Source: a virus | Length of the DNA: 64,000 bases | Strand: one strand, 5' to 3' | IMG/VR virus record: IMGVR_UViG_3300036985_004568 | Coordinates: 31,375-95,374 of that record | Part shown: positions 9,860-61,810 of the stretch, piece after piece | Layout: every line of letters starts with the position of its first letter | How positions within the stretch are numbered: position 1 is the stretch's first letter | Notes under the pieces: model-generated | What the model saw: the letters and a program-made list of their open reading frames with translations, nothing else | Databases searched by the model: none | What the model was told of the DNA's origin: nothing | Translations under genes and position numbers: made by a program

Positions 9860-10391
9860 CACTGCAACTGGGTATTGTGTTATGCGTAATGGTAAAATAT
9901 CAGAAGTAGGTTGTATTAATGTAAGGGCGTCTTTAGACCTTTTTGAACGTACTGTAGAAATGAGTAAGGACATTCGGGAATTATTGAATAAGTTTAAGCC
10001 AGATTATCTTTGTCTTGAGGAGATATATGGTCTGCCGGGGCGTTATACGGCCCTTAAAGCACTCGCTATAGTACGTGGCGCCCTTATTTTAGTATGGTAT
10101 GAATATAAACATGAGGCACCTATTGTTATTAATTGCTCCTCAGCTAGATGTAAAATAGGAATAAAGGGCAATGCTAAGAAACCGGAGGTTATGGCTGCCG
10201 TTAATGCTAAGTTTAATCTTAAGATTGAAAATGAACATGAGGCTGATGCAGTAGTATTGGGAGTAGTAGGTAATGATATGCTTCCAGCTAAAGAGCCTGA
10301 AATAGAAGTGACCAATACTGCGGTTAAAGTTAGAAGTAAGGGAACTAAAGTGGGAAAACTTAGTAAAGGTGGAAAGAAGGGGAAGAAGTAA
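9828..10391 (+). CDS. RuvC-like Holliday junction resolvase
   Basis: 187 residues with the RNase H-fold acidic residues: LALDQSSTATGY at the start, YLCLEEIYG in the middle and EHEADAVVLG near the end. This is the RuvC arrangement of four carboxylates. A Lys/Gly-rich tail follows. AAAGGAG precedes the ATG and the stop overlaps the SbcC-like ATG. It probably resolves junctions or trims branched DNA before packaging. Confidence 0.85.
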   Translation: MGILLALDQSSTATGYCVMRNGKISEVGCINVRASLDLFERTVEMSKDIRELLNKFKPDYLCLEEIYGLPGRYTALKALAIVRGALILVWYEYKHEAPIVINCSSARCKIGIKGNAKKPEVMAAVNAKFNLKIENEHEADAVVLGVVGNDMLPAKEPEIEVTNTAVKVRSKGTKVGKLSKGGKKGKK

Positions 10392-19922: not shown

Positions 19923-22139
19923 ATGGGTATAGGTAGCTCTTGGGAAAATTTCTTCGATAAACAGGCAAAGAACACAGCTGCTACAGCTAAGTTCATTGAA
20001 AAGCCCACTTCTCCTGAAGTATTCTTCAGGGACTGGATGGGACAACCCCTATTTCCTGAGCAGTTAAATCCTATTAATGCCATGTTTACTCCAGATCTTG
20101 AGAACCTCAATCCTGATATTAATGAGATTCTATTAATGTTTGGAGAAGGCGCTGGAAAAGACTTTCTATGTGAGCGCATGTTAATATATGTAGCTTATTG
20201 GTTACTGTGCCATAAGAGCCCACAAAAGTACTTAGGTAGGGCTGAAGGTACGCCTATCGACTTAGTAAATACTTCCGTAAATGAAGAACATGCATCCAAT
20301 GTATTCTTTGAGCAGTTCTGTGAGGCCGTAAAATTAGTTATTAATCCCATAACTGGAAAGAATTGGTTTGAAGAACAAGGTATGGATATCCGTTCTGGTA
20401 GGGATATACTCACAACTAAAGTAAGGTTTCCAAAAAATATCACCGCCTATAGTTGTAACAGTGTTAAATACACCGCTGAAGGAAAGAACGTATTAATTGG
20501 AATCCTCGACGAGATCGCAGAATTCAAGTATGATAGGGCTAAATCATTATACACCAACCTTAAAGCTACCGCTACTTCCCGCTTCCCAAACTACCATAAG
20601 ATAATTTTAATATCTTATTTAAGAGACCAGTATGATTTTATGAACAGTCACTGGAACGAGATGGAGGCTTTACCAGAATCTTTGCGTAGGAAGGTATATA
20701 TGTCAAAAAAGGCTACTTGGGAAGTGAACCTAATGGTCTCTAAGGCAGATTATGCAGATGCATACGCACAGGATCCAGAAGACTCGGCAAGAAGATATGA
20801 AAATATTATGCCTAGTAAAACTGGCCAGAAGTTTATAAAGAACGGAATTAAGATTACTAATGCTGTATATGACTTTGATGGTTCTCCCATTATATCGGAA
20901 ACTCCCCATGTTAGTACTAATATAAATGAGGAGACCCTGCAGGTTTGGTTTAAGGCGTTTTATATTAAAGAAATTTATAGATTGGAGCAGGAATTAGCCC
21001 TAAGTCCCAACAGTGCAGAATTAAGGGCTAAAATTGATGCATTAAAAGATAACCATAGTGGTGCTAATTATTATATTCATATTGACTTGGCAAAAGGTGC
21101 AGTTGACTATGCTGGGTTTTGTATGTTGCATACTTATCAGAAGACTGAGTCCCAGATTGGATATTACACCGATCTAATCGTACAGTTACAGCCGGATGGC
21201 AATGAGATAAATTTTGAGCAGATAAGGGAATTTATTTTTAAATTACAAAGTATGGGATTTCCAATCGCTAAGGTCTCACTAGATGGGTGGTCCTGTCAAT
21301 TAGGTACAAATAAAATAAAATTACTTAATGGCACCACTAAAAGAGTTGACGAAGTAACTCAAAAAGAATGGATTTATGCTTTTGATTCCTCCACTAATAG
21401 GATTGTCCCTGCTGAATGTAATCCTGCACGGAAAACTGGGGAAAATATAGGTTGTTATGGGTTACTTTTAGATAATGGAGAACAGGCTTCGTTTACCGCA
21501 GAACATAAAATTTTAATGTTAAATGGGACTTATAAAAGAGTAATAGATTTAATCCCAGGAGACCAAATAAGGCCTTTAGAATTTAGGGAAAAGAATATTT
21601 GGGGTGGGGGAAGTACTTATTTACAAGTCCACCAACCCTCAAATAAAACTAAAAAATGGCAATTTGTCCATAAAATTGTATCAATTACTTATATTGGTAA
21701 AAAGGATGTATATGATTTAGAAGTACCTAATTATCATAATGTTGGCCTAGAGTGTGGAATATTTGCACATAATTCAACAGATTTTATGCAATTATTGGAT
21801 AAAAGGGGAATTCCATGTGAACTAGTGTCTCTAGATCGCACTATGCAGCCTTATAATACTTTAAAGGATTTATTATACCAGGAGATACTTGAATATTATT
21901 ATAACCCTATACTACTTAGGGAGTTAAATGAACTACAGATTATAAATAACAAGGTAGATCATCCTAAAGAAAGTACAGAAAGGTTAAAGGAAGAGGGTAA
22001 AAGACTGGGTTCCAAAGACCTTGCTGACTCCTTGGCCGGTGCTGTATTTACTGCATCTTCTGCGGGTGGTTCCGGTTCAGGTTGTGTGGTAGAATTAGTG
22101 CCGGAAGAGGCCGAAGATAAGTTGGATAAACTCTTTTAG
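19923..22139 (+). CDS. Terminase large subunit interrupted by a mini-intein
   Basis: 738 residues as translated, 578 after removal of a 160-residue intein. The ATPase part has GEGAGKDF as Walker A (Asp where Thr/Ser is usual) and LIGILDE as Walker B. The nuclease part has YIHIDLAKG, KVSLDGWS joined to STDF, and DLADSLAGA, the RNase H-like acidic residues of phage terminases. It translocates and cuts DNA into proheads. The intein splits nuclease motif II. Confidence 0.9.
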   Translation: MGIGSSWENFFDKQAKNTAATAKFIEKPTSPEVFFRDWMGQPLFPEQLNPINAMFTPDLENLNPDINEILLMFGEGAGKDFLCERMLIYVAYWLLCHKSPQKYLGRAEGTPIDLVNTSVNEEHASNVFFEQFCEAVKLVINPITGKNWFEEQGMDIRSGRDILTTKVRFPKNITAYSCNSVKYTAEGKNVLIGILDEIAEFKYDRAKSLYTNLKATATSRFPNYHKIILISYLRDQYDFMNSHWNEMEALPESLRRKVYMSKKATWEVNLMVSKADYADAYAQDPEDSARRYENIMPSKTGQKFIKNGIKITNAVYDFDGSPIISETPHVSTNINEETLQVWFKAFYIKEIYRLEQELALSPNSAELRAKIDALKDNHSGANYYIHIDLAKGAVDYAGFCMLHTYQKTESQIGYYTDLIVQLQPDGNEINFEQIREFIFKLQSMGFPIAKVSLDGWSCQLGTNKIKLLNGTTKRVDEVTQKEWIYAFDSSTNRIVPAECNPARKTGENIGCYGLLLDNGEQASFTAEHKILMLNGTYKRVIDLIPGDQIRPLEFREKNIWGGGSTYLQVHQPSNKTKKWQFVHKIVSITYIGKKDVYDLEVPNYHNVGLECGIFAHNSTDFMQLLDKRGIPCELVSLDRTMQPYNTLKDLLYQEILEYYYNPILLRELNELQIINNKVDHPKESTERLKEEGKRLGSKDLADSLAGAVFTASSAGGSGSGCVVELVPEEAEDKLDKLF
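21294..21773 (+). mobile_element. Mini-intein in terminase large subunit
   Basis: 160 residues (458-617). It starts with Cys (CQLGTNKIKL), has block B SFTAEHKI (TxxH) and ends GIFAHN followed by Ser +1. No homing endonuclease motif or space for one is present, so only splicing is expected. The flanks rejoin to DGWSSTD, the expected terminase sequence. Confidence 0.9.
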
Positions 22140-23803: not shown

Positions 23804-24901
23804 ATGATATTACGTCAAACAGAATATAATAACTGGAGAGGGGCATGGGATTCTGAAAGAGCCTATATAGTTTATGATATTATTGAATATAACGGTTCTG
23901 CCTATGTTTGTATTAAACAACATGCCGATCAAGTTCCTCCAAATTTAACTTATTGGAATTTATTAGCTGAAGGACAAATAGGTCCGCAAGGACCTCAGGG
24001 GGAAATTGGTAGTCAGGGGCCCCAAGGCTTTCAAGGCAACCAAGGACTTACTGGAGATACCGGTGACCAAGGTGGAGTTGGTGAGCAGGGCCCTATGGGA
24101 CCACAAGGACACCAAGGCTTCCAAGGTTGGCAGGGCTATCAAGGAATTAAAGGGGACACTGGTGATCAAGGTGGACAGGGATTTCAAGGAGAAGAAGGAG
24201 AGATTGGTCCTCAAGGTGATGCTGGAATACAAGGACCACAAGGCAATCAAGGGTTTCAAGGTAACCAAGGGCCACAGGGAAGTACCGGAAGTCAAGGTGC
24301 AACAGGATCCCAAGGACCACAAGGTGTGGCTGGTTCTACAGGCCCGCAAGGAACTCAAGGTGTACAAGGGGCAGTTGGTAGTCAAGGAAATCAGGGCAAT
24401 CAAGGTAACCAGGGCGCACAAGGACCCAATCAGGTCTCTACGTCTACAGCAACTAATATTACCGGAATACTTAAGGGGAATGGAGCAAATGTTTTAGCTG
24501 CTACCCCGAGTACTGATTATCTGGTCCCTAATGATATTCAGAGCGCCTTTGCTGAGTCTCTTGGTGTATCCACATCTACCTCAGCAGTATATGCACAAAA
24601 ATTAAGATTATCTTTTACACCTACTACATCTGGTAATTATTTACTAATTTGGTCGTGTGAGACTGTGAACTCAAATGGCGGTGGTACTATTGTATATATT
24701 CAAGTTCAGCAGAATGATACTACTAACTTAGCCGGAGAGTTTGTACATGAGGTATGGACTGGTAATTTATATGAAGCCCAAGCAGGTTCTGCTGTGGTGG
24801 CCTTGACTGCTGGTGTAGCTCAAACATTTGATATGGACTGGAGACGCTCTGCAAATAATGGGCGCATTCGTGATGCTAGAATGGCAATACAAAAACTTTA
24901 A
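23804..24901 (+). CDS. Collagen-like fibre protein
   Basis: 365 residues. The N-terminal WRGAWDSERAYIVYDIIEYN, ending YWNLLA, is a carbohydrate-binding-module-like domain, also found twice in the fibre at 52223. Residues 57-205 are uninterrupted Gly-X-Y repeats (QGPQG, NQGFQG types). The C-terminal 150 residues form a beta-rich C1q/TNF-like head (TPTTSGNYLLIWSCETV), likely trimerising. It is probably a host-binding fibre, here outside the main tail operon. Antisense ORFs over the repeats are not genes. Confidence 0.85.
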   Translation: MILRQTEYNNWRGAWDSERAYIVYDIIEYNGSAYVCIKQHADQVPPNLTYWNLLAEGQIGPQGPQGEIGSQGPQGFQGNQGLTGDTGDQGGVGEQGPMGPQGHQGFQGWQGYQGIKGDTGDQGGQGFQGEEGEIGPQGDAGIQGPQGNQGFQGNQGPQGSTGSQGATGSQGPQGVAGSTGPQGTQGVQGAVGSQGNQGNQGNQGAQGPNQVSTSTATNITGILKGNGANVLAATPSTDYLVPNDIQSAFAESLGVSTSTSAVYAQKLRLSFTPTTSGNYLLIWSCETVNSNGGGTIVYIQVQQNDTTNLAGEFVHEVWTGNLYEAQAGSAVVALTAGVAQTFDMDWRRSANNGRIRDARMAIQKL

Positions 24902-24910
24902 GGAGTTAAC

Positions 24911-25117
24911 ATGACTTATACTTATACTTTAGTTTCTGAATCCCCGGATCTAGATTTTATTCACATACAAGTAGCAAGTTCTCTTATGGTTGATAAGCAA
25001 ATTGATTATTGTAGGTATGATGAAGATTTATGTCTGCTTCAGGTGATCTTTATTAATGAATTATCAGTGGAAGATAAGGCTATCCTTGATCAGATTGTAA
25101 CACAACTACCTATTTAA
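24911..25117 (+). CDS. Hypothetical small protein
   Basis: 68 residues, acidic, alternating strand pattern (YTLVSESPDLDFIHIQVA). AAGGAG precedes the ATG. It lies two bases from the next gene. Probably a small virion-associated protein; function unknown. Confidence 0.58.
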   Translation: MTYTYTLVSESPDLDFIHIQVASSLMVDKQIDYCRYDEDLCLLQVIFINELSVEDKAILDQIVTQLPI

Positions 25118-25119
25118 CT

Positions 25120-25707
25120 ATGAAAAATATTATTGTTAATACAGCTGCCATCTTTGATCTGGTTCTTCTCGGAACTGATGGTAAAAAAGTTGAAGGCCTG
25201 GATATTCTTTATGAAATCAGAAGGGCCGATGACAATTCCTTAAGTGATACCGGGATAATGGGGGAAGAATCAGGGAGATATTTTGTAACAATTAACTTAT
25301 CTGTTAAAGCACAGTATGTTATGTTTTATACTACACCTGAGGGTTATGAGGACGGTATGGAGGATTTTGCGGTTATAGATGAGCAAGCCAAAGAGTCCTC
25401 TGTCCAAGCCATTTCTACAAAAATAGACCTTTTAGCGGGAACTTTAACTTCTATAATTAATTCTTTAACTTCACACAGGGGATTAACTGAAGATCGTTTA
25501 GCTAGAATACTTGGATTAGTACAGGAAAATTTTAGAATTACTTCCCCTGTATATGATACTCTAGGAAACTTAATTAGTAGTGTTACCAAAATTTATGCAT
25601 CAGCTTCTGATTGCAATGCAGATATAAATCCTATTGCTACCTATTCGGTTGCGGGTTCTTATGATTCCACTAATAAACTTCTAACTTATAAAGTAACCAA
25701 AAACTAA
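25120..25707 (+). CDS. Hypothetical protein
   Basis: 195 residues. An N-terminal beta domain (VLLGTDGKKVEGLDILYEI, then GRYFVTINLSV) resembles small baseplate or fibre-attachment folds, followed by helices (ISTKIDLLAGTLTSI) and a beta C-terminus. It could join the collagen-like fibre to the virion. Inference only. Confidence 0.58.
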   Translation: MKNIIVNTAAIFDLVLLGTDGKKVEGLDILYEIRRADDNSLSDTGIMGEESGRYFVTINLSVKAQYVMFYTTPEGYEDGMEDFAVIDEQAKESSVQAISTKIDLLAGTLTSIINSLTSHRGLTEDRLARILGLVQENFRITSPVYDTLGNLISSVTKIYASASDCNADINPIATYSVAGSYDSTNKLLTYKVTKN

Positions 25708-25708
25708 C

Positions 25709-26482
25709 ATGCCTGATCCTGAAGATCCAATACCTCCTCCTGATGAAGACGATGATTTAGGTGGTCATGCTAGACATCGTACCCCACCAAATCAACCTAC
25801 TGTTAAATCTGTTGTTTTAGCGGGAGTTGGCTTATTTAAAAATGTCCTTTCTGCTATTACTAGGGGATTATTGTCCCCAAAAGAACTTCCAGTTGGGGAA
25901 GAGCCAATTGGAGGGGGTGGAAAACGGAGGAAAAAGTCACAAAAGACCCCTTATTTCCCTGGAAGGATAGTTCCACAGAGTAAAAAGTATAAACTTACGG
26001 GAACTAAGAAATTTCCCTTCCATTTCAAGGCTTTTGTGCTTGGAAAACTGAAGATAAGAGTTAAAGCGAAGACTAAGGTGCGGGGAACCTTACTTGCCCC
26101 TACGAGCCTCCTAGCGCAAATAACGGGTATTAAGCTATTTAAGAAGATGCTTAGGGCGCTTATTGGTGGTACAAAATTGACAAGAACGTTGACAAGAATA
26201 CGTATTTTTGGAGTTAAGTTATTTGCTTCCAAGAGGTTATGGTTTGTCAAGGGGATTAAATCCTTTACTTACCAAGTACGGCAGATCCTTAGAGGTACCA
26301 AGTCATTCTCCAACTTTAACAAGTATATCTTAGTAGGAATTAAAATCTTTAGTACCAAGGTAAAATTAACCCTAAAAGGAACAATATTTAAAGCAATTAA
26401 ATGTTTAAAGCAATTGAGGGGTAAAAAGGATTTTAAGAAGTTTTTATTTGCTTTGGGGATATTTGAAAAGAAGAAACGCTAA
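25709..26482 (+). CDS. Highly basic 14-residue tandem-repeat protein
   Basis: 257 residues. The first 25 are acidic and proline-rich. From Gly98 to residue 251 the chain is eleven consecutive 14-residue units, each starting with Gly: consensus G-[TIV]-K-x-F-x3-h-x3-[LI]-x. Examples are GIKSFTYQVRQILR and GTKSFSNFNKYILV. A separate unit lies at 39-52 (GVGLFKNVLSAITR). The repeats are rich in Lys/Arg and end in KKKR. I recognise no family. A repetitive beta structure binding nucleic acid or membrane is possible. It is the last gene of the plus-strand block and its end overlaps a convergent gene by 39 bases. Confidence 0.8.
   Translation: MPDPEDPIPPPDEDDDLGGHARHRTPPNQPTVKSVVLAGVGLFKNVLSAITRGLLSPKELPVGEEPIGGGGKRRKKSQKTPYFPGRIVPQSKKYKLTGTKKFPFHFKAFVLGKLKIRVKAKTKVRGTLLAPTSLLAQITGIKLFKKMLRALIGGTKLTRTLTRIRIFGVKLFASKRLWFVKGIKSFTYQVRQILRGTKSFSNFNKYILVGIKIFSTKVKLTLKGTIFKAIKCLKQLRGKKDFKKFLFALGIFEKKKR
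26000..26461 (+). repeat. Eleven in-register 42-base (14-codon) coding repeats
   Basis: The encoded Gly recurs every 14 codons for eleven units without an insertion or deletion. The DNA copies have diverged strongly; periodicity is clearest at protein level, which indicates old duplication with selection for spacing. Confidence 0.85.
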
Positions 26483-41111: not shown

Positions 41112-41843
41112 TTAAAGTTTATGAATATTTGGGTTATAAACAACAGTACTATGATTTGGTAAATTAACCAAAGTAAAAAGGCGCTTACCTGAAGCATCGT
41201 TCTGTATTCCTACCCAGGTTACTGGAATCTTTGTGCCCTGAGTTTGTGCATCGCTATCAGTAAAATTTAGTGCATCTAATCCTAACTTTATGGCATTAGG
41301 TAAGTTACGAAGTATGTATTGTGCACCCATTCGCATATAATGGACTGGTTTTATGCCTTTTACCCTAATAACTCCACCTTTTCCCCCCTTACCGGCTATA
41401 AATACGTCACTTACTGCTTTACTACTGTATTTACGCCTACCCCGGGCATATTTAGGGGGACTACGTAACTTCTTGAATCCCACAAAATGCATCACTCCAC
41501 TGGCCTTAATAGTATGCGCCTTGGTACCTTCTTCAAGATATGGGGCATAGGGCACAGTATTGGCGGAGGGGTATCCCGCGTACATCCTTATTACTATGTT
41601 CCTAGGTGTACCATGCACATACACAACCTTAATAGATTGGCGAAGCCTTCCACTCTTCTTAGGAACTTTTGGCTTAATTATCTTCTCTTGAACGTCAAGT
41701 ACAAACTTGTCTACTATTTCTTCAACCTGCTTATTTACTTTAGCCACTAGATTGGGACCAATATACTTAGCCACAAGTCCCTGAGTATGCTTATCCAGTT
41801 GGGAGAATATTGCCCCAGTATTAATTTTAATAGATCCGGACAT
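41112..41843 (-). CDS. HK97 gp10-like head-tail connector protein
   Basis: 243 residues. KSGRLRQSIKV, VPYAPYLEEGTKAHTI and the later RMGAQYILRNLPNAI are hallmarks of HK97 gp10-type neck proteins. It is longer than usual, with a Gly/Lys-rich middle and a C-terminal extension of about 60 residues. Confidence 0.82.
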   Translation of the reverse strand: MSGSIKINTGAIFSQLDKHTQGLVAKYIGPNLVAKVNKQVEEIVDKFVLDVQEKIIKPKVPKKSGRLRQSIKVVYVHGTPRNIVIRMYAGYPSANTVPYAPYLEEGTKAHTIKASGVMHFVGFKKLRSPPKYARGRRKYSSKAVSDVFIAGKGGKGGVIRVKGIKPVHYMRMGAQYILRNLPNAIKLGLDALNFTDSDAQTQGTKIPVTWVGIQNDASGKRLFTLVNLPNHSTVVYNPNIHKL

Positions 41844-42179
41844 TTATTGTTTAACAATATAGAGTTTAAGGTGGTGTACTTGGCCCGCTTCATCTTCAAC
41901 ACCCACCACTAGGTAATGTATAGAGTCAATTAGAAGCCTATCATTTGTCCTAACATCCACAGGATTTAAATAGGCCACCAATTCTACCCAATACTTAAGT
42001 CCGCCTATATCAATTTCATACTTTTCTTTATTGGGTTGGACACATACTGCAACTGTAGCAATTGTAGTAGGGCTTGCAGTATTTTCTTTTTCCCCAAATG
42101 AATTTGGAGTAGTATTCTGCGTAGGCCTTAGTATAGTAGCCGTCTTATTAAGTAAACTATCAAAAATTGTATCGGACAT
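41844..42179 (-). CDS. Head closure (head-tail joining) protein
   Basis: 111 residues from ATG 42179 behind AAGGAG. TATILRPTQNTTPNSFGEKE and NDRLLIDSIHYLVVGVEDE match the small beta-barrel head-closure family ('v.......r..d....~g..y.V..v.d...~~~h~~~~~'). It plugs the portal and joins the tail. Confidence 0.75.
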   Translation of the reverse strand: MSDTIFDSLLNKTATILRPTQNTTPNSFGEKENTASPTTIATVAVCVQPNKEKYEIDIGGLKYWVELVAYLNPVDVRTNDRLLIDSIHYLVVGVEDEAGQVHHLKLYIVKQ

Positions 42180-42188
42180 ATCCACTCC

Positions 42189-42782
42189 TTAAGAAGTTGA
42201 CCCGGGCTCTAATGATCCCTGTTTGATCAGAATAACCAATTGTTCGATTGACTGTCCATAAGAGGAATTAGTTCCACTTGTGGCGGAGGAATCAATATGG
42301 TATTTTATCATATAGTCCCCTATTTTCTTCGTATCTATTAAGCTGGTATCTACTGTTCCAGGTTTAAACTTGTTTAATGTATCAATTACTAATACAGCGA
42401 TAAAGAATTTAACTAGTGCCGGAAGTGTAGTAACTGTCCACCCAATTGTGTAGGTTACCTTTGCTTCAGAGCTTTCTGGTATTGAAGTTGTCATAACAAT
42501 CAACTTCCTATCAGCTAGAAACTTAAATTCCGTAGCAAGTAGCTCTGTATAGTCCCCAACATCTGCCCTATACTCAACCTTAGTAACAGTTGCGAAAGAC
42601 TCATCCAATTCTAGCAGCTTGGATGGCGCCCACATATAATATGTTTTTGTCTTTGTTTCACTTCTTAGAAAACCCAATAAATTATGAGCACGGGCTTCTG
42701 CTAATTCCAAAATAGAATTTGGAAATAGTTCTGGGGCTAGTCCAGTTAATTCTGCCATATAGGAAGCTTGCATAAGAGACAT
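42189..42782 (-). CDS. Head-tail adaptor protein
   Basis: 197 residues: an N-terminal helical part (ILELAEARAHNLLGF), a beta insertion (TVTKVEYRADVGDYTEL, AKVTYTIGW) and C-terminal helices (LVKFFIAVLVIDTLNKF). This resembles gp6/gp15-type adaptors that bind the portal. It lies next to the head-closure gene. Confidence 0.68.
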   Translation of the reverse strand: MSLMQASYMAELTGLAPELFPNSILELAEARAHNLLGFLRSETKTKTYYMWAPSKLLELDESFATVTKVEYRADVGDYTELLATEFKFLADRKLIVMTTSIPESSEAKVTYTIGWTVTTLPALVKFFIAVLVIDTLNKFKPGTVDTSLIDTKKIGDYMIKYHIDSSATSGTNSSYGQSIEQLVILIKQGSLEPGSTS

Positions 42783-42784
42783 AG

Positions 42785-43309
42785 TTAAACTCCTTTTTTA
42801 GATTTATTTTTATCCATATTTGAAAATAACCAAAAATCAACCCAAATGGGCTTTAATTTCTTAATAGTTAGTAAATGTCTAATGAAAGAGTTAAAGTTTG
42901 TGTGGTCTGACTTGAGTAAGTCCTCCCGGGATACAATGAAAATACCACAGTCAGCAATTCTCTCATTATCGAATAGTAATGCTCCGTCAGGTTCAATCCT
43001 CCAAGTCTTTGATCCACGTAGACGCTTAAGAAATACAGCATTTCCTGGCTGCTTAGAAGCTAGTGCTTCTATCTCTTTAATATTATTAGGTAGTACTCGG
43101 CAACCAAAAGATACTATAACATATTCATCTTCAATATGTTGGCATATCTCCCGTAGTTTATCCATAGTCTTTTCAATAGGACAAACTGGATACTTAGAGG
43201 CCATCCTAGTGAATACAAAATACTTTCTATCTAGTAAGGATAGTAACGCCTTACCAAGGAACTCCAACTCTGAGTCCTTATCATTAACAAAAACCACTAC
43301 GGTAGCCAT
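42785..43309 (-). CDS. Hypothetical protein, possible nucleotide-sugar transferase fold
   Basis: 174 residues from ATG 43309 behind AAGGAG. ATVVVFVNDKDSELEFLGK, EYVIVSFGCRVLPNN and IADCGIFIVSREDLL recall the strands of sugar-nucleotide transferase-like Rossmann proteins, but the signature nucleotide-binding motif is absent. It is encoded two bases from the glycosyltransferase gene, which hints at a joint sugar role. Weak assignment. Confidence 0.5.
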   Translation of the reverse strand: MATVVVFVNDKDSELEFLGKALLSLLDRKYFVFTRMASKYPVCPIEKTMDKLREICQHIEDEYVIVSFGCRVLPNNIKEIEALASKQPGNAVFLKRLRGSKTWRIEPDGALLFDNERIADCGIFIVSREDLLKSDHTNFNSFIRHLLTIKKLKPIWVDFWLFSNMDKNKSKKGV

Positions 43310-43311
43310 AG

Positions 43312-44757
43312 TTATCTCCTTCTTAGTATTGAAAACGATTTTAATTCCTTTAAGATCAAATTGGGGGTTAGGGCCTTTGTGCAAGGAGTAGTTCCTCCTG
43401 ACCTAATTGAACTAGCGCAGTCCTTCCAAGCAGTTGCATCTTTTACCATCTGCCTGTCATAACAGGGCTTACATTTAAGTGGGGGGTATATAGCCCTACA
43501 TAGTTCTTTATGGTGGGAAATACGTATATCTGGATCCACTGTAGTGAACATTACTAAGCAGGGCTTTTTAAAAGCCAACCCTACCCAATATATTCCAGTA
43601 TCCATTGATACTACTCCATCACAATTATATACTACTGAGGCCCACTCTCTCACAGTAAGTTTACCAGTTAAATTTATACTATTTGGCCTCTCAAGTAATT
43701 TCATTGGAGATTGGTCCATGATAATCACATTATAGCGCCCAGAACGATTTAACTTATTTAGGAGTTCGTCATAATATTCTTTTGGATAAGATCGCGCATC
43801 ACTTCCATTGGACATCAACCCTAATGCAATATTTATTTTATTTGGACGTATGTACTGTTCCCCATATTTAATTTCTTCATAGTTTAAATTTAAAACAGGA
43901 GTAAAGTCATTAATTTTAGTTATATCTATACGTAGTAATTCACAAAGTGAATCGATCCTACAGTTTAAGTTACGAGTTATTCTATAGTCCTCTAAATTAG
44001 TAGCTAATGTAAAGTGCCAAGTATAATCTGCGGGTTTGGGTAGATTGGCCAAATTATAACTCTTCATAGAACATAACTCATGATTAGTTGTAAATATATT
44101 ATTTATATAGGGATTTCCTTGTAATAGATCTGCTCCGGCTTTACGAGTTACATAATCTATCTTCCACCCATTTGAAGCTAAGTATTTTAAGGGGATAGTA
44201 GACATAAGTATATCCCCAAGCCCTCGATCAGAGCAATAAGACACTATATCGAATAAAAGAGTTCTACCCGTCGGTAAATTACTTGATGCGCGTAAAATTG
44301 GATCAACTTCTTTTAAAATATTATCTACTTGTGCCAATGAATCAAGTACTGGATCAATTAATTTACAATTAAAACTACTTAATTTAGTAAACTTATTAGC
44401 CAATTCTATTGTATCTGGACCTGAACCAAATGTTAAGTTAAACCTATGGTAATCCTCAAAAGCAGTATGGGTAAACCAGGCCCATTCTGCAACCACATAT
44501 ACTATAGCTGGATTAATAATAAGGTTCTCTGGTAAACTATCACAGAAATATACTATTCCAAAATTTCTTGCTATTAGTTCTTGTATAAAGCCACGTGGAA
44601 ATTTATCATTACTAATTATTGAACCAAATCCTAATGCCAAAAATAGTCCTTCTGGTTCAAATATGGTTGCAGAGTGAGACTTAGATAATTGATTTGGTTG
44701 TACTTTGGAGGCGTAATGGACAGTGTACTTTTCTGATATTAACTTAATCATCTTCAC
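43312..44757 (-). CDS. Glycosyltransferase family 9-like
   Basis: 481 residues. The C-terminal 300 show a GT-B layout: RGLGDILMSTIPLKYLASNG (acceptor-side start of heptosyltransferases), INIALGLMSNGSD, INLTGKLTVREWASVVYNCD and VVSMDTGIYWVGLAFKKPCL, the GT9 donor-site block. KPCY and CKPC-like cysteines follow. The first 150 residues are a less clear second domain. It lies between the capsid and connector genes, so it may glycosylate virion protein. Confidence 0.75.
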   Translation of the reverse strand: MKMIKLISEKYTVHYASKVQPNQLSKSHSATIFEPEGLFLALGFGSIISNDKFPRGFIQELIARNFGIVYFCDSLPENLIINPAIVYVVAEWAWFTHTAFEDYHRFNLTFGSGPDTIELANKFTKLSSFNCKLIDPVLDSLAQVDNILKEVDPILRASSNLPTGRTLLFDIVSYCSDRGLGDILMSTIPLKYLASNGWKIDYVTRKAGADLLQGNPYINNIFTTNHELCSMKSYNLANLPKPADYTWHFTLATNLEDYRITRNLNCRIDSLCELLRIDITKINDFTPVLNLNYEEIKYGEQYIRPNKINIALGLMSNGSDARSYPKEYYDELLNKLNRSGRYNVIIMDQSPMKLLERPNSINLTGKLTVREWASVVYNCDGVVSMDTGIYWVGLAFKKPCLVMFTTVDPDIRISHHKELCRAIYPPLKCKPCYDRQMVKDATAWKDCASSIRSGGTTPCTKALTPNLILKELKSFSILRRR

Positions 44758-44773
44758 TCTCTTTACATTAAAA

Positions 44774-44811
44774 TTAGGGCCGGAAAGACTTGTTAGCCCA
44801 ACCGGCCCTAA
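44774..44811 (-). terminator. Strong hairpin terminator after major capsid gene
   Basis: On the minus strand TTAGGGCCGG pairs perfectly with CCGGCCCTAA around an 18-base loop, followed by TTTTAATG. It lies in the 101-base gap between capsid and glycosyltransferase genes. It probably reduces transcription from the abundant capsid message into the downstream genes. Confidence 0.75.
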
Positions 44812-44858
44812 GTTACTTTCTACAAACTCTTACACAGTCTACAAAGGTTTCGTAATTC

Positions 44859-45824
44859 CTACGATCCCAATTTTTTGATTAAGGTCAAACCCACAGCTTT
44901 ATCAGCTGAGTTCTGCAATGACCATACGAAGTCAATGACTTCAGCCATGATCAGCAGGGTGGAGAACTGCTCTTCAATCAATTTCCGACGGAAGATTATG
45001 CTCCCTCTCTGACCCAACATAGCACCATCAGCGCGGGCTAAGATGGCACATTCGCCACTGTTCTTAGCTTCAAGCACGGATGATTCAACGATCTTTACAC
45101 CATGAATAAGGGGTAAAGAGCCGCTACGGGTAACGCCCTTTTCAGCCACATTATACGTTCCAACCTGAGCGATCTTATCAGATCTGCGCAGTTTGTTAGC
45201 AAATGTGTTGGATGCAAAAAGAACCAGCATGCCACGATCCTGACCATAAACGCCCTGGCCTTTAATAGCGTCAGAGATAATGTCTACGAGGTCATCAGAA
45301 TCCTCATATGTAACAGGAGTCTGGGCGCATTTTCCAGAAGCGTTGGCGATAGTATAAATACCATCGAACATATCAACGTAGGAGCCGGTTCCAGCTTCAA
45401 CACCGACCATCATGGCTCTCTCTTCGGCTCTTGCGAGGGTAAGAGTGAGGGACCTGCGAATATAATTCGCGAGATCAACACCAGCGGTGTCGAGGTCAGA
45501 GTCTAACAACTTGGTGAATGCTACTAACAACTGAGGTTCAAGAACGACTGATTTGGTAGCGAAACCAGTTTCAGTATTGCCAGTGCGGACATCAACTCCG
45601 TAGGCAACTTTGTACGCGTTAACATCATCACCAAACAGAATGCGGGGAACGCTCAAAGAACGTCCGGCAACATTCAGGGTCTGGCAGTAAGCTCTCATGA
45701 TGTTGGCTTCAACCAACTCTTCAATGATCTTGCTTGATACTTCCTTAGGCAGAAAATCGTTAGCCGCGGACACATTATCCGGGATTGCACCAAGGTTGCT
45801 TCCTTTTAAAATATCGAATTCCAT
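44859..45824 (-). CDS. Major capsid protein (HK97 fold)
   Basis: 321 residues. FLPKEVSSKIIEELVEANIM, then RSLSVPRILFG, TKLLDSDLDTAGVDLANYIR, and GVKIVESSVLEAKNSGECAI follow the HK97-fold major capsid (Phage_capsid-type) pattern. It lies downstream of the protease-scaffold gene and before a strong terminator. Base composition is visibly higher in G/C than in neighbouring genes (35 of 60 bases at 45001-45060), consistent with codon selection for high expression. Confidence 0.88.
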   Translation of the reverse strand: MEFDILKGSNLGAIPDNVSAANDFLPKEVSSKIIEELVEANIMRAYCQTLNVAGRSLSVPRILFGDDVNAYKVAYGVDVRTGNTETGFATKSVVLEPQLLVAFTKLLDSDLDTAGVDLANYIRRSLTLTLARAEERAMMVGVEAGTGSYVDMFDGIYTIANASGKCAQTPVTYEDSDDLVDIISDAIKGQGVYGQDRGMLVLFASNTFANKLRRSDKIAQVGTYNVAEKGVTRSGSLPLIHGVKIVESSVLEAKNSGECAILARADGAMLGQRGSIIFRRKLIEEQFSTLLIMAEVIDFVWSLQNSADKAVGLTLIKKLGS

Positions 45825-45848: not shown

Positions 45849-47168
45849 TTATTTTCCCTTAAGGACTTTTAAAAATCCTTGCTCGGGGGTGATTTCCACT
45901 TTTTTCTCTAAGACCGGCACCACGACCTCATTCACTGCTAAGGGGGTGCTCTTAGAGGGATCAATAACTACCTCTTTTACCTTAGCCTGTAAAGCGCCTA
46001 GATCCTTTGTAATTTGATCCAGTTGTTCTTTGATTGGAGCTTGATTTGCCTTTTCGATCTTCAATCCGTCTACTTCGGCGTTGAGGGAAGTAATCATAGC
46101 TTCTTTCTCATCCAACTGTTTCTGATACTCGGCTCTAATTGCCTTAAGTTCTTCCTCTGTATATGTTCTAACGGTGTGTTGAGCAACCGTTTCGGTTGAT
46201 TTCATTCCATTAGCTTCGGTTACTGTAACATCATTGGAGATAACTTCCTGTTTTACTGCATGTGCTTCATTATCTATAGTTGTAACTATAACGGCCGCAT
46301 GCTCTTCTGTTATAACCATGGGCTCAGCAGGAATAGTTACTTCTGCAGATTTAACTTCCTCCACAGGTGCAGCGGGAGTTTCAATTATAACGGGGGCTTC
46401 TTCCTTAATAACTACTATTGGGGCCTCAATTATAACCTCTTCTTTGTTAATAACCTCTAATTTAGGCTCTTCTACTGCAGGTACCTCAATCTTAGTATCT
46501 TTAGTCTTCTCCATTTCACACTCCATCTCTTTTTTAGTGCCAGGTTGTACAGTCACTGGCTTGGGCAATGAGTCATCTTTAACATTATCAGGAATCTGCC
46601 CTAAGTTTTCAATTTTAAATATATCCTCTGTTTCCACAACGTCTTGCAACGCTTTAGTAAGTGATTTATGTGCAAACTCAGCCCTACAATTAGCGGGTAA
46701 CCCTACCACGGATACCTCAAATAGTTCCATTGAAGAGATTACATTGACTGGAGCTGAAGGTTTATTCTTTAAATAGGGGAACCGGTGAAGCGCCTCTGTA
46801 GGAGAAACTCTTTCCCCAGCGGTAAGCCTGCCCCCAATGGAGAATTTGCTTATGATCCCCTCTTCTATCTTTTTACGTAACTCCTCTTCCCACTGGGAGA
46901 TATAGATCTTAACCCAAAGTCCCTGGCTATCAACTTTTGCATCATCTAACCGTCCAATAGCCCGATTATAGTCGTGATTAAAAAATACGGTGTTTCCAAA
47001 CTCTAAGAGGCCAATTGCGGCGTCTTTAAGGGCGTCTAGGACGATTATATCTCCCTGGCGATCAAGGTCCTTAGTAGCAGCATAGCCCTCAATATAAAAG
47101 CCTTTGCCCTCATGCCCGGACTTTACGATATCTAAGCTAAAATAAAAATCATTCTTTAGAATCTGCAT
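45849..47168 (-). CDS. Prohead protease fused to scaffold domain
   Basis: 439 residues. Residues 1-165 are an HK97-type prohead protease: GYAATKDLDRQGDII, FFNHDYNRAIGRL (catalytic His region) and ISKFSIGGRL (catalytic Ser region). Residues 195-310 are low-complexity Val/Glu/Ile/Pro-rich, then a coiled coil (EEELKAIRAEYQKQLDEKEA) and an end typical of a scaffold (delta) domain. It shapes and matures the prohead. Confidence 0.85.
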   Translation of the reverse strand: MQILKNDFYFSLDIVKSGHEGKGFYIEGYAATKDLDRQGDIIVLDALKDAAIGLLEFGNTVFFNHDYNRAIGRLDDAKVDSQGLWVKIYISQWEEELRKKIEEGIISKFSIGGRLTAGERVSPTEALHRFPYLKNKPSAPVNVISSMELFEVSVVGLPANCRAEFAHKSLTKALQDVVETEDIFKIENLGQIPDNVKDDSLPKPVTVQPGTKKEMECEMEKTKDTKIEVPAVEEPKLEVINKEEVIIEAPIVVIKEEAPVIIETPAAPVEEVKSAEVTIPAEPMVITEEHAAVIVTTIDNEAHAVKQEVISNDVTVTEANGMKSTETVAQHTVRTYTEEELKAIRAEYQKQLDEKEAMITSLNAEVDGLKIEKANQAPIKEQLDQITKDLGALQAKVKEVVIDPSKSTPLAVNEVVVPVLEKKVEITPEQGFLKVLKGK

Positions 47169-47481: not shown

Positions 47482-49107
47482 TTATATTTTCTTTTTCAAA
47501 CACCACAACTCAAAATGGGTTCCAATTCCCCAGCCATTTGCTACCTGGGAGTCTATCAAAATTGAAGTAATGTTGTCAGCTGTATTAGTCCACACTTCAC
47601 CCCTTAAGAATCCTCCATCTATTGTAGTGCCATTTATATCACAAAAACCTTCAAATATTCCAGTCCTAAGATAACCAGACTTGGCGAATATTAGACCACT
47701 ACACATCCAGAGATTTCCAGCAGAGCCAGTTCCATAACCTAAAAGATAAAATCCACCATTACCAACTTGCCTTCCGGCGGAAACAGTAGTATTTTGCCAT
47801 CTTAATCTCTGTCCACCATAATTGCTTCCGTTAGTGTCCCCATTTGGCGATATCAAAGGAGCTGTGCTGTTAGCACCTATTACATTCCTAATAATAAGTT
47901 CATAAATGGTATCTACATCCCCATTCAACCCAGTTATATTTACGGATTGGGCAGCGGCAGCCAAGGTGTTGTCGTATATCTTCTGCATCACTCCGCAGTT
48001 GATATTGCCTATGACATTTAATTTACCTGTCTTCAGACCTGTGGTGGCTGCTAAACCAGTCAAGGTTTTCTTGAATAAGAGGAGCTGGGTGCCGACACCA
48101 AGACCGTTGGCATTGTCCGCCGTTAAAACAATTTGCGTTATGTTATCTGCAGTATTATTCCACGAACATCCCCACATATTTATTCTATTAACTGTCGTTG
48201 TAGCAATGTAATCTGCTGATTTTCTTATTGCTGTTCTTACATAACCTGATTTAGCGTATATGATGACATCTGATAAGCAATTAGGACCAGTGGTAGTTCC
48301 CATATTGCCAATAGTAAAACTGTTAAGAACCCCACGATAAGCAGATGCAGTAGTATCTATAGCCCTTAGATATTGAATACCATAATTTGCACCAGTATCA
48401 GTGTTAAAGGTTAAGTTTATGCCTCCATCACCTGTAGCGGTAACTACTCTACTTACCAATCTATACTCCTCATCCACATCTCCGTTAAGTCCTGAAAATG
48501 TGTGTGCTGTTTGTGCTCCATTTACATAAATTTTAAAATATAATTGATCTGTATCAAAAATATTGTTCCAAGTTCCATCTGTTCTATATCCTAACGCACC
48601 AAGGGTATAGTTAGAATCAATATTAGAGCCGGAGATATTCCAAAAGTTATTAGTTGTTTGTGTGTCACAAGTAATTACAATCCAGTATCTTGTTCCTATG
48701 GTTAAATAAAATGGAATAGCAAAAGTTCCTTTAATAATAGTATTTGTTCCAGGTGGAGTTACTACTATAGAAGCATTTGCATTGGCAAGTGTTCCAGATG
48801 GTTTTCCTAATCCACCACTTCCATCATCAGTTTCAATTCTTAAAGTCCAGTTTCCACTTGGAGTTCCAGTTTTAGCATTCCCCTCTCTCACTTCAACCGC
48901 AGTAATCAAGGATGCAGTTGCTATAAAGGCTTGACCTTTATTTACTTGTTGTCCAGTTGGACTTTTTCCAATATTATATACTCCGTATGATGCTGATGTC
49001 TGTTGAACATCAACAGTTTGAGCAATAATAATTTTCTCTTCCACCAACTGATAACCACCGAAGTATAAGTTAGCCAGTGAGGCTTGATTAAGGCTGCCGA
49101 TATCCAT
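47482..49107 (-). CDS. Appendage protein with two repeat modules
   Basis: 541 residues. An N-terminal beta-sandwich (residues 25-200, GNWTLRIETDDGSGGLG) precedes two copies of a roughly 150-residue module. The module shows SGLNGDVDEEYRLVSRVV, AKSGYVRTAI and SWNNTADNITQIVL in copy 1 and TGLNGDVDTIYELIIRNV, AKSGYLRTGI and WTNTADNITSILI in copy 2. A third copy ends the neighbouring protein at 49107. Probably a virion surface or receptor-binding protein. Confidence 0.68.
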   Translation of the reverse strand: MDIGSLNQASLANLYFGGYQLVEEKIIIAQTVDVQQTSASYGVYNIGKSPTGQQVNKGQAFIATASLITAVEVREGNAKTGTPSGNWTLRIETDDGSGGLGKPSGTLANANASIVVTPPGTNTIIKGTFAIPFYLTIGTRYWIVITCDTQTTNNFWNISGSNIDSNYTLGALGYRTDGTWNNIFDTDQLYFKIYVNGAQTAHTFSGLNGDVDEEYRLVSRVVTATGDGGINLTFNTDTGANYGIQYLRAIDTTASAYRGVLNSFTIGNMGTTTGPNCLSDVIIYAKSGYVRTAIRKSADYIATTTVNRINMWGCSWNNTADNITQIVLTADNANGLGVGTQLLLFKKTLTGLAATTGLKTGKLNVIGNINCGVMQKIYDNTLAAAAQSVNITGLNGDVDTIYELIIRNVIGANSTAPLISPNGDTNGSNYGGQRLRWQNTTVSAGRQVGNGGFYLLGYGTGSAGNLWMCSGLIFAKSGYLRTGIFEGFCDINGTTIDGGFLRGEVWTNTADNITSILIDSQVANGWGIGTHFELWCLKKKI

Positions 49108-50729
49108 TATGAAATCCTCCTGAATAGGTCAATCTGGGTGCCGATGCCAAGACCACCTACTTTGTCCGATAGTATTACAAAACTCGTGATATTATCAGCA
49201 GTATTATTCCAAGACCAACCATTTAGGAGTAATCTCGTTACGGTAGTAGTCACTACTGTATTCATATTGCTACCGAGTGCAGTTCTTACGAGTCCAGACT
49301 TGGCGTATATTGCAATGTTAGCCATACTTATGCCGCCACCTGCATCAGCACAAGCACCTATATAAATCTGGTCATAGACCCCTCTATAAGCAGCAACTAC
49401 GGTATCTATTGCTCGTGTCCATTGAACTCCATAATTTGAACCAGTATCATTATTAAATCTTAATCCATATGCACAATCGTTTGCTCCATTTACTATCCTT
49501 GCTTTAAGCATATACTCAACATCTGTATCTCCGTTGAGGCAGTAATTGTATATGTTTGTGCTTGAGGTCTGGGGAACGCTTGTTCCTTCAACACACATGG
49601 CTCCGTCAAAGTAGGAGGTTGTAGAGTTAGTTGGTATATAGCAAAATACTCCAACCTGAGTAGCAGAAGCTCCGATAGTAGCCGTAACAGTTAGCAACTC
49701 AAACCCTGCTCCCACAACTGCTGAACTCAAAGTTGTGTCTACTCCATCAGATATTCCTATCTTTGTGCCAGCCGTTTTTACAAGACAACTAAATGTTATT
49801 TTTCTCCCCTTCCAATAAGCTATACCTTTTGCGGTATGGAAAAGTTGATAAATAGAAGCACTCGAACTATCAGATACAACTTTGGCAGAGTATGTTCCAA
49901 TCTTAATCTCTGTTCCTTCTCTTGCTACAGTTGAGCCAGTTCCTGTAATCGTCCACCCATCAGGAGCAGCACTCGAACCAGCAGACCAAGTTTCAAAATC
50001 TGAGTTCTGGAGAAGATTTCCACCAAGACCTGAGATGGTAAGGGAGGTTTGTGCTGCTCTTACTTGTCCTGATTGGAGAACAGTAAAATCGGAACCTGCT
50101 TTAAACCAATTTATATATGCCACAATTTGAGCAGTTGTCCTATATGCTTGAAAAGAAACTGTTCCACTAGCAGTGGCACTTGCTAATGAACAATCTATAT
50201 TAGACCCCACTAAACCCCCATTCAAGTAAACATCAACTCTTGCCGTAGTCCAATTAACATCAAAAGTCCACTCTTGCCAAACATCTTGTGCTGTTAAATT
50301 AGCACCTACTTCTACATTTGTTCCAGAATTATAAATATACAAACCATCACTATAGAAACTAGCCACCAACCGATAAGTTCCATTATGACACTGCAGTTCA
50401 AATAAATCACTATTGGCAGCAGTTCCAACTGAATCTAAATAAATTGATATAGAGAATACTGACCTTGCCCCAAATGTTCCTATATCTTGATTTCTGTTAG
50501 CGTATCCTCCATTAGTTCCACCACTATCTAGTTTCATACAAGATTTGCTATCAAAAGTTTCTTGAGTAGACACGCCTGTTCCTGCATCTCCGTCAGTCCA
50601 GTCGGTAATAACTGCCATATCTTCATCATCTATATCCGCATTGGAAATAGCATTAGCAACAGTAGTGCTGTATATCCTCTGCCAGACATCGTTGAGTGAG
50701 CCTAATACCCTAAGATTTCCTGTTTTCAT
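49107..50729 (-). CDS. Appendage protein with LamG-like and repeat modules
   Basis: 540 residues. N-terminal beta sandwich (about 60-220: KSCMKLDSGGTNGGYANRNQ, YINWFKAGSDF) resembles a concanavalin/LamG-like domain. A second carbohydrate-binding-like domain follows (FETWSAGSSAAPDGWTITGT). The last 150 residues are the module shared with the protein at 47482 (YCLNGDTDVEYMLKARIV, SWNNTADNIT). Likely sugar-binding virion protein. Confidence 0.7.
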   Translation of the reverse strand: MKTGNLRVLGSLNDVWQRIYSTTVANAISNADIDDEDMAVITDWTDGDAGTGVSTQETFDSKSCMKLDSGGTNGGYANRNQDIGTFGARSVFSISIYLDSVGTAANSDLFELQCHNGTYRLVASFYSDGLYIYNSGTNVEVGANLTAQDVWQEWTFDVNWTTARVDVYLNGGLVGSNIDCSLASATASGTVSFQAYRTTAQIVAYINWFKAGSDFTVLQSGQVRAAQTSLTISGLGGNLLQNSDFETWSAGSSAAPDGWTITGTGSTVAREGTEIKIGTYSAKVVSDSSSASIYQLFHTAKGIAYWKGRKITFSCLVKTAGTKIGISDGVDTTLSSAVVGAGFELLTVTATIGASATQVGVFCYIPTNSTTSYFDGAMCVEGTSVPQTSSTNIYNYCLNGDTDVEYMLKARIVNGANDCAYGLRFNNDTGSNYGVQWTRAIDTVVAAYRGVYDQIYIGACADAGGGISMANIAIYAKSGLVRTALGSNMNTVVTTTVTRLLLNGWSWNNTADNITSFVILSDKVGGLGIGTQIDLFRRIS

Positions 50730-59191: not shown

Positions 59192-59515
59192 ATGATAACA
59201 CTGGATTGGAGGGTCTTTGCCTGGTTTGTTCTGGCATTGGCAATCCTAAAGGGTATTGTTACCGGCTTAACCAATCTGTATACCTACATTTACAAGGGAG
59301 GTTATACGCTTGGTAGAAAGCAGATGGAGAGTGAGGATACCACGCAATTACTTAAGGCAATTCAGGAAGTTAAAACCGAAATGCCGGAGTCTGAACTTGC
59401 CTTAGTAACTCTCTGGAGTAAACTAGTAGGAGCAGAAACAAAGAAGGAAGAAAAGAAATGTGAAGAGAAAGTAATTGGATTTGGACCAATAAAAAAGGAG
59501 GATAAGGATGCGTAG
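59192..59515 (+). CDS. Membrane-anchored early protein
   Basis: 107 residues. One hydrophobic helix (VFAWFVLALAILKGIVTGL) followed by a charged coiled tail (TKKEEKKCEEKVIGFGPIKK). TAGGAGG precedes the ATG. It overlaps the MoxR gene by 8 bases, so it may belong to the MoxR-VWA unit. Function unknown. Confidence 0.6.
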   Translation: MITLDWRVFAWFVLALAILKGIVTGLTNLYTYIYKGGYTLGRKQMESEDTTQLLKAIQEVKTEMPESELALVTLWSKLVGAETKKEEKKCEEKVIGFGPIKKEDKDA

Positions 59516-60581
59516 TATATCTCACGATGAATTAAAGAGTGTATTAAAGAGGTCTTATGCCCATAGGGTAACTGCATTCATATGGGGAGCAACTGGAATA
59601 GGAAAGTCAGAGACAGTAAGAGAGACTGCTCAGGAATTAGCTAAGGAGTCCAAGCTTACTTATGTCGAGGGAGGGTCTCCTCAAGAAGAAAACTTTACTG
59701 TAATAGATGTAAGGTTATCCCAGATGGACCCTTCTGACTTAAGAGGATTGCCTTATGTAAGCAAGGAAGGTAAGACTGCCTGGGCTTTCCCTAGCTGGTT
59801 GCCTACCAAGGGCAAGGGGATATTGCTTCTGGATGAGGTGAATCTTGCTCCTCCTCTGGTCCAATCTTCTGCCTATCAGCTAGTATTAGATAGGAAACTT
59901 GGAGACTATGTGTTGCCAGATGGTTGGGGTATAATTGCGGCTGGTAATAGGGCAGAGGATAAAGCCTATACCTTCGAGTTAGCTGGTCCATTATGTAATA
60001 GGTTCGTACACTTGGAACTAGCTTGCCCGCCAATAGTAGACTGGACAGATTGGGCAATTGCCAATCAGATCGATTCAAGAATCGTGACTTTCTTGAACTT
60101 TAAGCCTCAGCACTTGTTTAAGTTCGATAGCAAGATGAAGGATAAAGCATTCCCTACGCCTAGGTCGTGGTCGAGGTATTGCTCCCCTCTTATCAAGGAT
60201 GTTGTTGACAATCAGGAACTACTGACTCTGATGAGTTCAGCAATCGGAGAGGGTGTTGCTACGGAATGCGTAGCCTATCTGAAACTTACCAAGCAGATCG
60301 ATCTTAAGGATATCTTAGAGCATCCTGAGAAGGCTGCCGACATCAAGGGAATCGATGTAAGATATTCCTTGGTAAGCGCTTTATCAGAACTTGTCAAGAA
60401 GGATACAAAGACAACCTTGCCGAAAGTCTGTAAGGTTGCGGAACACTTCGAAGCTGAATTCGCAATATTGCTCTTAAGATTCATCAAGGGTAATGTTCCG
60501 ACCTTGCTTACCTTCATACAGAAGGATAAGGCTGTAGCGGATGTCTACAAGAAATATATGAAATATGTTATGGTTGAATAA
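59508..60581 (+). CDS. MoxR-type AAA+ ATPase
   Basis: 357 residues. Walker A is IWGATGIGKSETV, Walker B is ILLLDEVNLAPP and the sensor region is WGIIAAGNRAED, all in MoxR-family positions. It forms rings that remodel proteins, usually with a VWA partner, which is encoded next at 60596. It probably acts on a host or phage complex during early infection. GGAGGATAAGG precedes the ATG. Confidence 0.85.
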   Translation: MRSISHDELKSVLKRSYAHRVTAFIWGATGIGKSETVRETAQELAKESKLTYVEGGSPQEENFTVIDVRLSQMDPSDLRGLPYVSKEGKTAWAFPSWLPTKGKGILLLDEVNLAPPLVQSSAYQLVLDRKLGDYVLPDGWGIIAAGNRAEDKAYTFELAGPLCNRFVHLELACPPIVDWTDWAIANQIDSRIVTFLNFKPQHLFKFDSKMKDKAFPTPRSWSRYCSPLIKDVVDNQELLTLMSSAIGEGVATECVAYLKLTKQIDLKDILEHPEKAADIKGIDVRYSLVSALSELVKKDTKTTLPKVCKVAEHFEAEFAILLLRFIKGNVPTLLTFIQKDKAVADVYKKYMKYVMVE

Positions 60582-60595
60582 CCTAAGGAGGTATA

Positions 60596-61810
60596 ATGAA
60601 TCAAGAAGCTAAGGATAAGATAATCAAAGCGAGGGTTGGGCTTCAGAAGACACATCCTTTCTTCTCTTATCTTGCTCTTCATCTTACACCTATAGAGTGT
60701 GATCCGGCGAATAAGACCGGACCACAAGTTCCAACTATGGGAGTTGACAATAAAGGGAATATGTATTATAGCCCTGACTTTGTCAATAAGATGACGCAGG
60801 ATGAAGTTAAGGGAGTAGTATGCCACGAAGTTATGCATATAGCCCTTGAGCATCTTAAGGGCTTGAGGGGTAAAGATACCAAGGTAAGTAATGTGGCTCA
60901 GGATATTGTAATCAATGATATTATCCTAGAGAACCAGATGCAACTTCCTAGGGAAGGATTGCTTCCTCATAACCACGAGATAACTATCAATGGTAATATA
61001 AAAATCCAGAAGATAGATAAGAAACCTTGGGAACAAGTGTATCACGAATTAGAAAAGAAACTTCCTAAGGAAAAGCAATATGGCTTTGACGAGCATATGC
61101 GAGGTGATGGGGATGGTAAAGATGACCCTCAAAAAGGAAAGGGAGCTGGTCAAGATGATAAGAATTGGAAACAAATCATCAATGAGGGTTATGCTTACGC
61201 CAAGTTACAAGGTAAGGCTCCAGCGGGATTGGATAGGTATGTAGATGAATTGAACTATCCGAAATTGAATTGGAGAGAAATGTTACAGAAGTTCATCGTA
61301 AGGGAAATTCCTTATGACTTCTCTTATTCTAGACCATCTAAGCGTTCTCTTGCGTGTGGTGTATATATGCCAAGCGTAACAAGAGAGAGCCTAGAAATAG
61401 GAGTGGCACTTGATACTTCAGGTTCAATGTCTCCTAAGGACTTGAAAGAGTGCCTAAGTGAAACCGTAGGAATTGTCAAGGCTTATAGCAATGTGCATCT
61501 TACGGTAGTAACTTGTGATGCTGAAGTTCACACAGTAGGAGAGGTTACTTCTGAGGAAGATGTAGCCAATCTAGAAATCAAGGGTGGTGGAGGAACTGAC
61601 TTCATCCCAGTCTTTAAGTGGGTAGAAGAGAATAAGCCATCTATGAGACTGCTGATATTCTTCACGGATGGATATGGTTCGTTCCCTACAGATGCACCGA
61701 ATATGAAAGTCCTTTGGTGTATCACACAGGGTGGAATGGAGCTAGACAAGATACCTTTCGGGGAAAAGGTAAATCTAGACTTCAGAGATAAAGAAGAGGA
61801 GCAGGAATGA
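60596..61810 (+). CDS. VWA-like metallopeptidase domain protein (MoxR partner)
   Basis: 404 residues. Residues 60-170 carry CHEVMHIALEH, an HExxH zinc motif. Residues 270-390 are a VWA-like domain with a MIDAS motif (ALDTSGSMS), GGGGTDFIPVF and FFTDGYGS. This matches the DUF2201/VWA-like metallopeptidase class that pairs with MoxR ATPases. The order ATPase-VWA with a 14-base gap supports a functional unit. Confidence 0.85.
   Translation: MNQEAKDKIIKARVGLQKTHPFFSYLALHLTPIECDPANKTGPQVPTMGVDNKGNMYYSPDFVNKMTQDEVKGVVCHEVMHIALEHLKGLRGKDTKVSNVAQDIVINDIILENQMQLPREGLLPHNHEITINGNIKIQKIDKKPWEQVYHELEKKLPKEKQYGFDEHMRGDGDGKDDPQKGKGAGQDDKNWKQIINEGYAYAKLQGKAPAGLDRYVDELNYPKLNWREMLQKFIVREIPYDFSYSRPSKRSLACGVYMPSVTRESLEIGVALDTSGSMSPKDLKECLSETVGIVKAYSNVHLTVVTCDAEVHTVGEVTSEEDVANLEIKGGGGTDFIPVFKWVEENKPSMRLLIFFTDGYGSFPTDAPNMKVLWCITQGGMELDKIPFGEKVNLDFRDKEEEQE

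Follow-up and report, generated by a model that had tools for sequence, protein, structure and literature searches.

Does a glycosyltransferase gene embedded among the head genes of a phage serve to modify the virion, or does it act elsewhere? The question is raised by a stretch of 64,000 nucleotides (hereafter the window) that spans positions 31375-95374 of an uncultured virus record of 95,374 bases (IMGVR_UViG_3300036985_004568), for which modification of the virion rather than of the host envelope had been proposed in a first-pass annotation. We place the probability that this phage decorates its own virion with sugar by means of a GT9-family enzyme at about one half. The minus strand of the window, from ~54 kb down to 26 kb, encodes tail fibre proteins, an S78-type protease and an HK97-type capsid protein, followed by connector and tail proteins, and the gap between the capsid gene and the putative head-tail adaptor gene is occupied by two genes, the GT9 gene and a small ORF (Table 1). 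The proposed location between capsid and connector genes is borne out by the PF05065, phrog_442, phrog_501 and phrog_5 matches of the neighbouring genes and by an additional match of the capsid protein to a PHROG major head protein (E 1.1e-12). No promoter-like site between capsid and GT9 gene appears in the promoter listing, so GT9 should be transcribed together with the head genes.

Table 1. Features of the head operon around the GT9 gene (window positions; all on the minus strand).
Feature	Position	Strand	Basis
Head maturation protease (S78 type)	45849-47168	-	PF04586 E 2.3e-9; phrog_80 E 1.4e-20
Major capsid protein (HK97 type), directly upstream of GT9	44859-45824	-	PF05065 E 2.4e-13
Hairpin block, 58 nt, probable leaky terminator/attenuator	44764-44821	-	Folding and identity with relative
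GT9-family glycosyltransferase, 479 aa	43312-44751	-	PF01075 E 5.3e-11
174-aa ORF behind a strong Shine-Dalgarno; product possibly small and GT-A-like, no DxD	42785-43309	-	Low-confidence fold
Putative head-tail adaptor, directly downstream of the 174-aa ORF	42189-42782	-	phrog_442 E 0.0028
Putative head closure protein	41844-42185	-	phrog_501 E 0.014 (weak) and operon order
Tail completion/neck protein (HK97 gp10-like)	41112-41843	-	phrog_5 E 1e-9; PF04883 E 5e-4

The sole relative identified in IMG/VR, L001 (96,942 bases), encodes a GT9 protein that is 72% identical over its full length and a counterpart of the small ORF with 77% identity, in the same order as in the window. The capsid protein is 95% and the putative head-tail adaptor 71% identical between the two phages. 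Two adjacent 540-aa proteins encoded at window positions 47482-50729, which share repeated 'GLNGDVDxxYxL' modules, are among the most variable structural proteins of the pair, with ~50% identity over part of their length.

GT9 is an open minus-strand gene (43312-44757), and its assignment as a GT9-like glycosyltransferase, made at first from the letters of the DNA, holds: the product scores 42.7 bits and that of the relative 41.3 bits against PF01075, which has a curated cut-off of 22. Two starts are available, a GTG at 44757 (481 aa) and an ATG at 44751, of which the latter is preferred because the L001 protein begins at the same residue (MIKLISEK / MLKLISEK). An N-terminal domain of ~160 aa with no assigned fold is followed by a GT-B-type GT9 domain, which contains the motifs DRGLGD (residues 177-182) and DTGIYW (386-391) and cysteines at positions 429, 432, 447 and 459 (481-aa numbering). 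In an alignment with E. coli WaaC and WaaF, G181, D182, D386 and G388 are invariant, such that both the N-lobe G-x-GD and the C-lobe D-[ST]-G are present, and D182 corresponds to WaaC Asp13, which we take to be the catalytic base. The AlphaFold2 model built from the two phage sequences (pLDDT 33) is too low in confidence for a reading of the fold, and no GT9 relatives were found in phage records, plasmid records and bacterial genomes by searches of which one used a single strict DNA pattern. By its motifs, GT9 would be an active glycosyltransferase.

LPS heptosyltransferases are the best profile matches of GT9 (NCBIfam heptosyltransferase I and II, E 1.5e-8 and 8.4e-7), and WaaC and WaaF share with it the PF01075 family, the GT-B motifs, the catalytic Asp and the D-x-G. 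The scores nevertheless fall below the equivalog cut-offs of these profiles (34.3 vs 185.3 and 28.4 vs 134.6 bits). In contrast to the phage protein, the E. coli enzymes have a His in place of Trp391 and lack the four-cysteine cluster, and the phage gene differs from theirs in being located in a head operon. Trp391 (in DTGIYW; W389 in L001) aligns with Trp305 of TibC (SGLSW, 301-305), an enzyme that heptosylates serines of autotransporters and whose Trp305 hydrogen-bonds the sugar (PMC4358343). Like the TibC/AAH family (BAHT; TIGR04414; PDB 4rap, 4rb4), GT9 carries an additional N-terminal domain on a GT-B enzyme of the GT9 type, has a Trp three residues past the conserved C-lobe Gly, and contains a four-cysteine cluster after this Trp (C-x2-C-x14-C-x11-C, vs C-x2-C-x15-C-x11-C in TibC). 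All four cysteines are conserved in both phages and come close in spacing to the iron finger of TibC (Cys339/342/358/370), a putative metal site. The two proteins differ in that the N-terminal domain of TibC is a beta-barrel of 97 residues, against ~160 aa with no assigned fold in GT9, the Asp of D-x-G is replaced by Pro300 in TibC, and GT9 has no known autotransporter partner. A beta-hairpin thumb and a dodecameric assembly are further characters of TibC. No match to the TIGR04414 profile was obtained for GT9 of either phage at E values up to 10, and membership in the TibC family was accordingly rejected; at the level of sequence, GT9 shares traits with TibC and is not a member of its family. 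Trp391 together with the TibC-like cysteine cluster favours a protein acceptor over LPS. The cluster was rejected as proof of such an acceptor: four cysteines with different spacings are found at the corresponding place in three other GT9 proteins of phages, and one of these proteins (from L016) contains the ordinary His, so that protein glycosylation cannot be read from the cluster alone.

The second gene of the gap had been described as a possible sugar-nucleotide transferase relative. This was not established, as its product has no significant match in Pfam, NCBIfam or PDB sequence searches and resembles nucleotidyltransferases and GT-A glycosyltransferases (Foldseek, both libraries) in a low-confidence AlphaFold2 model from two sequences (pLDDT 52). 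Neither a DxD nor a pyrophosphorylase signature is seen by eye, and the model would be compatible with a small GT-A-like protein as one possibility.

The intergenic region between capsid and GT9 contains a hairpin (44777-44808; -25.6 kcal/mol, z -3.1). The first-pass annotation had placed GT9 behind a strong terminator, of which the strong hairpin stands; its U-tract is poor and imperfect (UAAUUUUAAUG), so that the structure looks like a leaky terminator. It is not listed by the terminator scan, probably because that scan takes loops of 3-8 bases only. The surrounding non-coding block of 58 nt is identical, loop included, to positions 5398-5455 of L001. No other perfect match between the two phages in this region is as long, the next (35 nt) falling within the capsid gene. 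With synonymous sites near saturation, this block is more conserved than a plain terminator requires. No Rfam family matched the block, and a search of IMG/VR found no further copy of it.

The phage genome also encodes other glycan-related enzymes, which lie away from the head operon. A GT2-methyltransferase fusion (genome positions 10294-11511) is 92% identical in the relative and 45% identical to a gene of cyanophage S-CRM01, and a Methyltransf_24 gene is directly followed by a gene for a CsaB-like polysaccharide pyruvyl transferase (E 8.6e-19; both at genome positions 24250-25826, L008 8750-10326). This broader glycan toolkit is compatible with the building of a virion glycan. The CsaB-like gene fits a cell-wall polymer equally well, which keeps modification of the host envelope in play. 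An MFS/BT1-type membrane transporter (PF03092, E 2.5e-15), encoded at genome positions 20756-21925 (L008 5256-6425), shares 87% identity with its counterpart in the relative.

GT9-like genes were retrieved from four more virus contigs in IMG/VR, all of unrelated phages (L014, L016, L028 and L030), with a DNA pattern built on the Trp-type motif. In L014, the Trp-type GT9 gene lies ~7 kb or less from a T4-like capsid gene and is accompanied by genes for an epimerase, a GT4 and a heptose-kinase-like protein; in L030 its companions are genes for a HAD phosphatase and a heptose-kinase-like protein, and in L016 and L028 it lies beside other glycosyltransferases and possible structural genes, for which PHROG gave no match. 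What L014 shares with the window is a Trp-type GT9 near a capsid gene, and L016 and L028 have theirs near possible structural genes. These loci differ from the window in protein identity (~20% for those aligned), in their larger glycan cassettes and in the T4 Gp23-like capsid of L014. Taken together, they hint that phages may repeatedly have put GT9 enzymes to use, with donors of the heptose type. The heptose-kinase-like genes of the cassettes in L014 (1127-7735) and L030 (799-6394) match the heptose-7-phosphate kinase profile TIGR02198 with E values of 2.7e-19 and 1.2e-28, respectively.

Freeman and colleagues reportedly described in 2023 glycosyltransferases that glycosylate the virions of mycobacteriophages such as Che8. 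The likeness to the present case is the idea of a phage-encoded enzyme acting on capsid or tail proteins, whereas no sequence relation was found, a search of the phage collection giving no match to GT9. In the Che8-like phage Maravista, the glycosyltransferase genes differ in being located near the 3' end of the genome. Virion glycosylation has been reported for mycobacteriophages, as cited in PMC11256854 and PMC12619734, and the GT9 case would therefore be a variant of a known trait.

How far the position of GT9 informs on its function depends on the history of the locus. This GT9 is present in only two phages (the window phage and L001), and L001 contains two ORFs (5465-5998 and 7445-7963) exactly on either side of it, neither of which is found in the window. 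For the first of these, matches to phage genes annotated as HNH endonucleases were obtained, and it shares 50% identity with the second. These insertions indicate that the boundaries of GT9 are entry points for DNA and that the slot is permissive; as it takes up genes, the position of GT9 alone is weak evidence on function. GT9 might thus be a passenger (moron) with a substrate unrelated to the virion, for instance a small molecule or DNA, which would also be in line with the terminator-like hairpin that precedes the slot. Such a passenger is improbable in our assessment: G+C and third-position G+C of GT9 (0.34 and 0.25) match those of the neighbouring genes, by which recent horizontal acquisition was rejected as far as base composition goes, gene order is kept in the relative, and no genes for DNA-base hypermodification were seen among the genes examined. 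Furthermore, between the two phages GT9 has a pS of 0.75, near saturation of synonymous sites, and a pN of 0.19, and its pN/pS of 0.26 (vs 0.09 for the capsid gene and 0.20-0.25 for connector genes, in this two-phage comparison) points to purifying selection much as on the genes around it. The location among head assembly genes and the large N-terminal domain would likewise suit a catalytically dead GT-B fold that serves as a structural or assembly factor, which is highly improbable given that both phages keep the Asp aligned to the WaaC base, the D-x-G and, at the phosphate-binding position, a basic residue.

Temperate phages are well known to alter the surface glycans of their hosts, and the target of GT9 might correspondingly be a glycan of the host envelope, either the LPS core or a polymer of the cell wall. 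Its modification would prevent superinfection or keep new phage from adsorbing to debris, a job shared by the CsaB-like enzyme and the GT2-methyltransferase. The profile matches to LPS heptosyltransferases and the CsaB-like gene with the Methyltransf_24 gene directly upstream of it agree with such a role, which we regard as somewhat unlikely overall. Neither an integrase nor a repressor turned up in the genes examined, the Trp and cysteine pattern is unlike E. coli WaaC and WaaF, and expression of genes of this kind would usually be expected in the early phase or from the prophage, not within a head operon. Modification of the virion is the best-supported reading on account of the late-operon place kept in a diverged relative, the purifying selection and the TibC-like active-site features; the part of the original proposal that set it apart from a host-surface role stands less firmly, since the latter also fits the CsaB-like and other glycan genes.

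If the virion is the target, GT9 would be made late and below the level of the capsid protein, as transcription must pass the hairpin. Its donor would be a nucleotide-activated sugar of the host, for which the family of the enzyme makes ADP-heptose or a related compound plausible, and the sugar would be moved to Ser/Thr of a virion protein, which might be the capsid, a tail protein or a collagen-like fibre. Elongation or capping of the resulting glycan may fall to the GT2-methyltransferase, the second methyltransferase and the CsaB-like pyruvyl transferase. In its most specific form, in which a TibC-like metal-finger protein O-glycosyltransferase puts a heptose-like sugar on capsid or tail proteins and other genes methylate or pyruvylate that sugar, the proposal is tentative and in its full detail rather doubtful. 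Were virion decoration by GT9 correct, virus particles would join LPS and autotransporter adhesins as known targets of GT9 enzymes, glycan synthesis encoded by a phage would be tied directly to head assembly, and a concrete case of virion glycosylation outside actinobacteriophages would be at hand. Virion glycosylation affects recognition by antibodies and possibly adsorption.

With regard to the host, queries with capsid and tail proteins matched no annotated phage, and a terminase query gave only matches of ~27% identity, spread over many hosts. Intein matches occur in two genes of the window, one for a terminase-like protein (PF14890, E 4e-9) and one that also matches LAGLIDADG (the two at 19923-22139 and 15475-17064); the L001 versions of these genes encode 577 and 219 aa, vs 738 and 529 aa in the window, which fits an absence of the inteins from L001. 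The window also encodes, at 59508-61810, an AAA ATPase beside a DUF2201 metallopeptidase/VWA protein, an unusual pair for a phage that is 88% identical in the relative.
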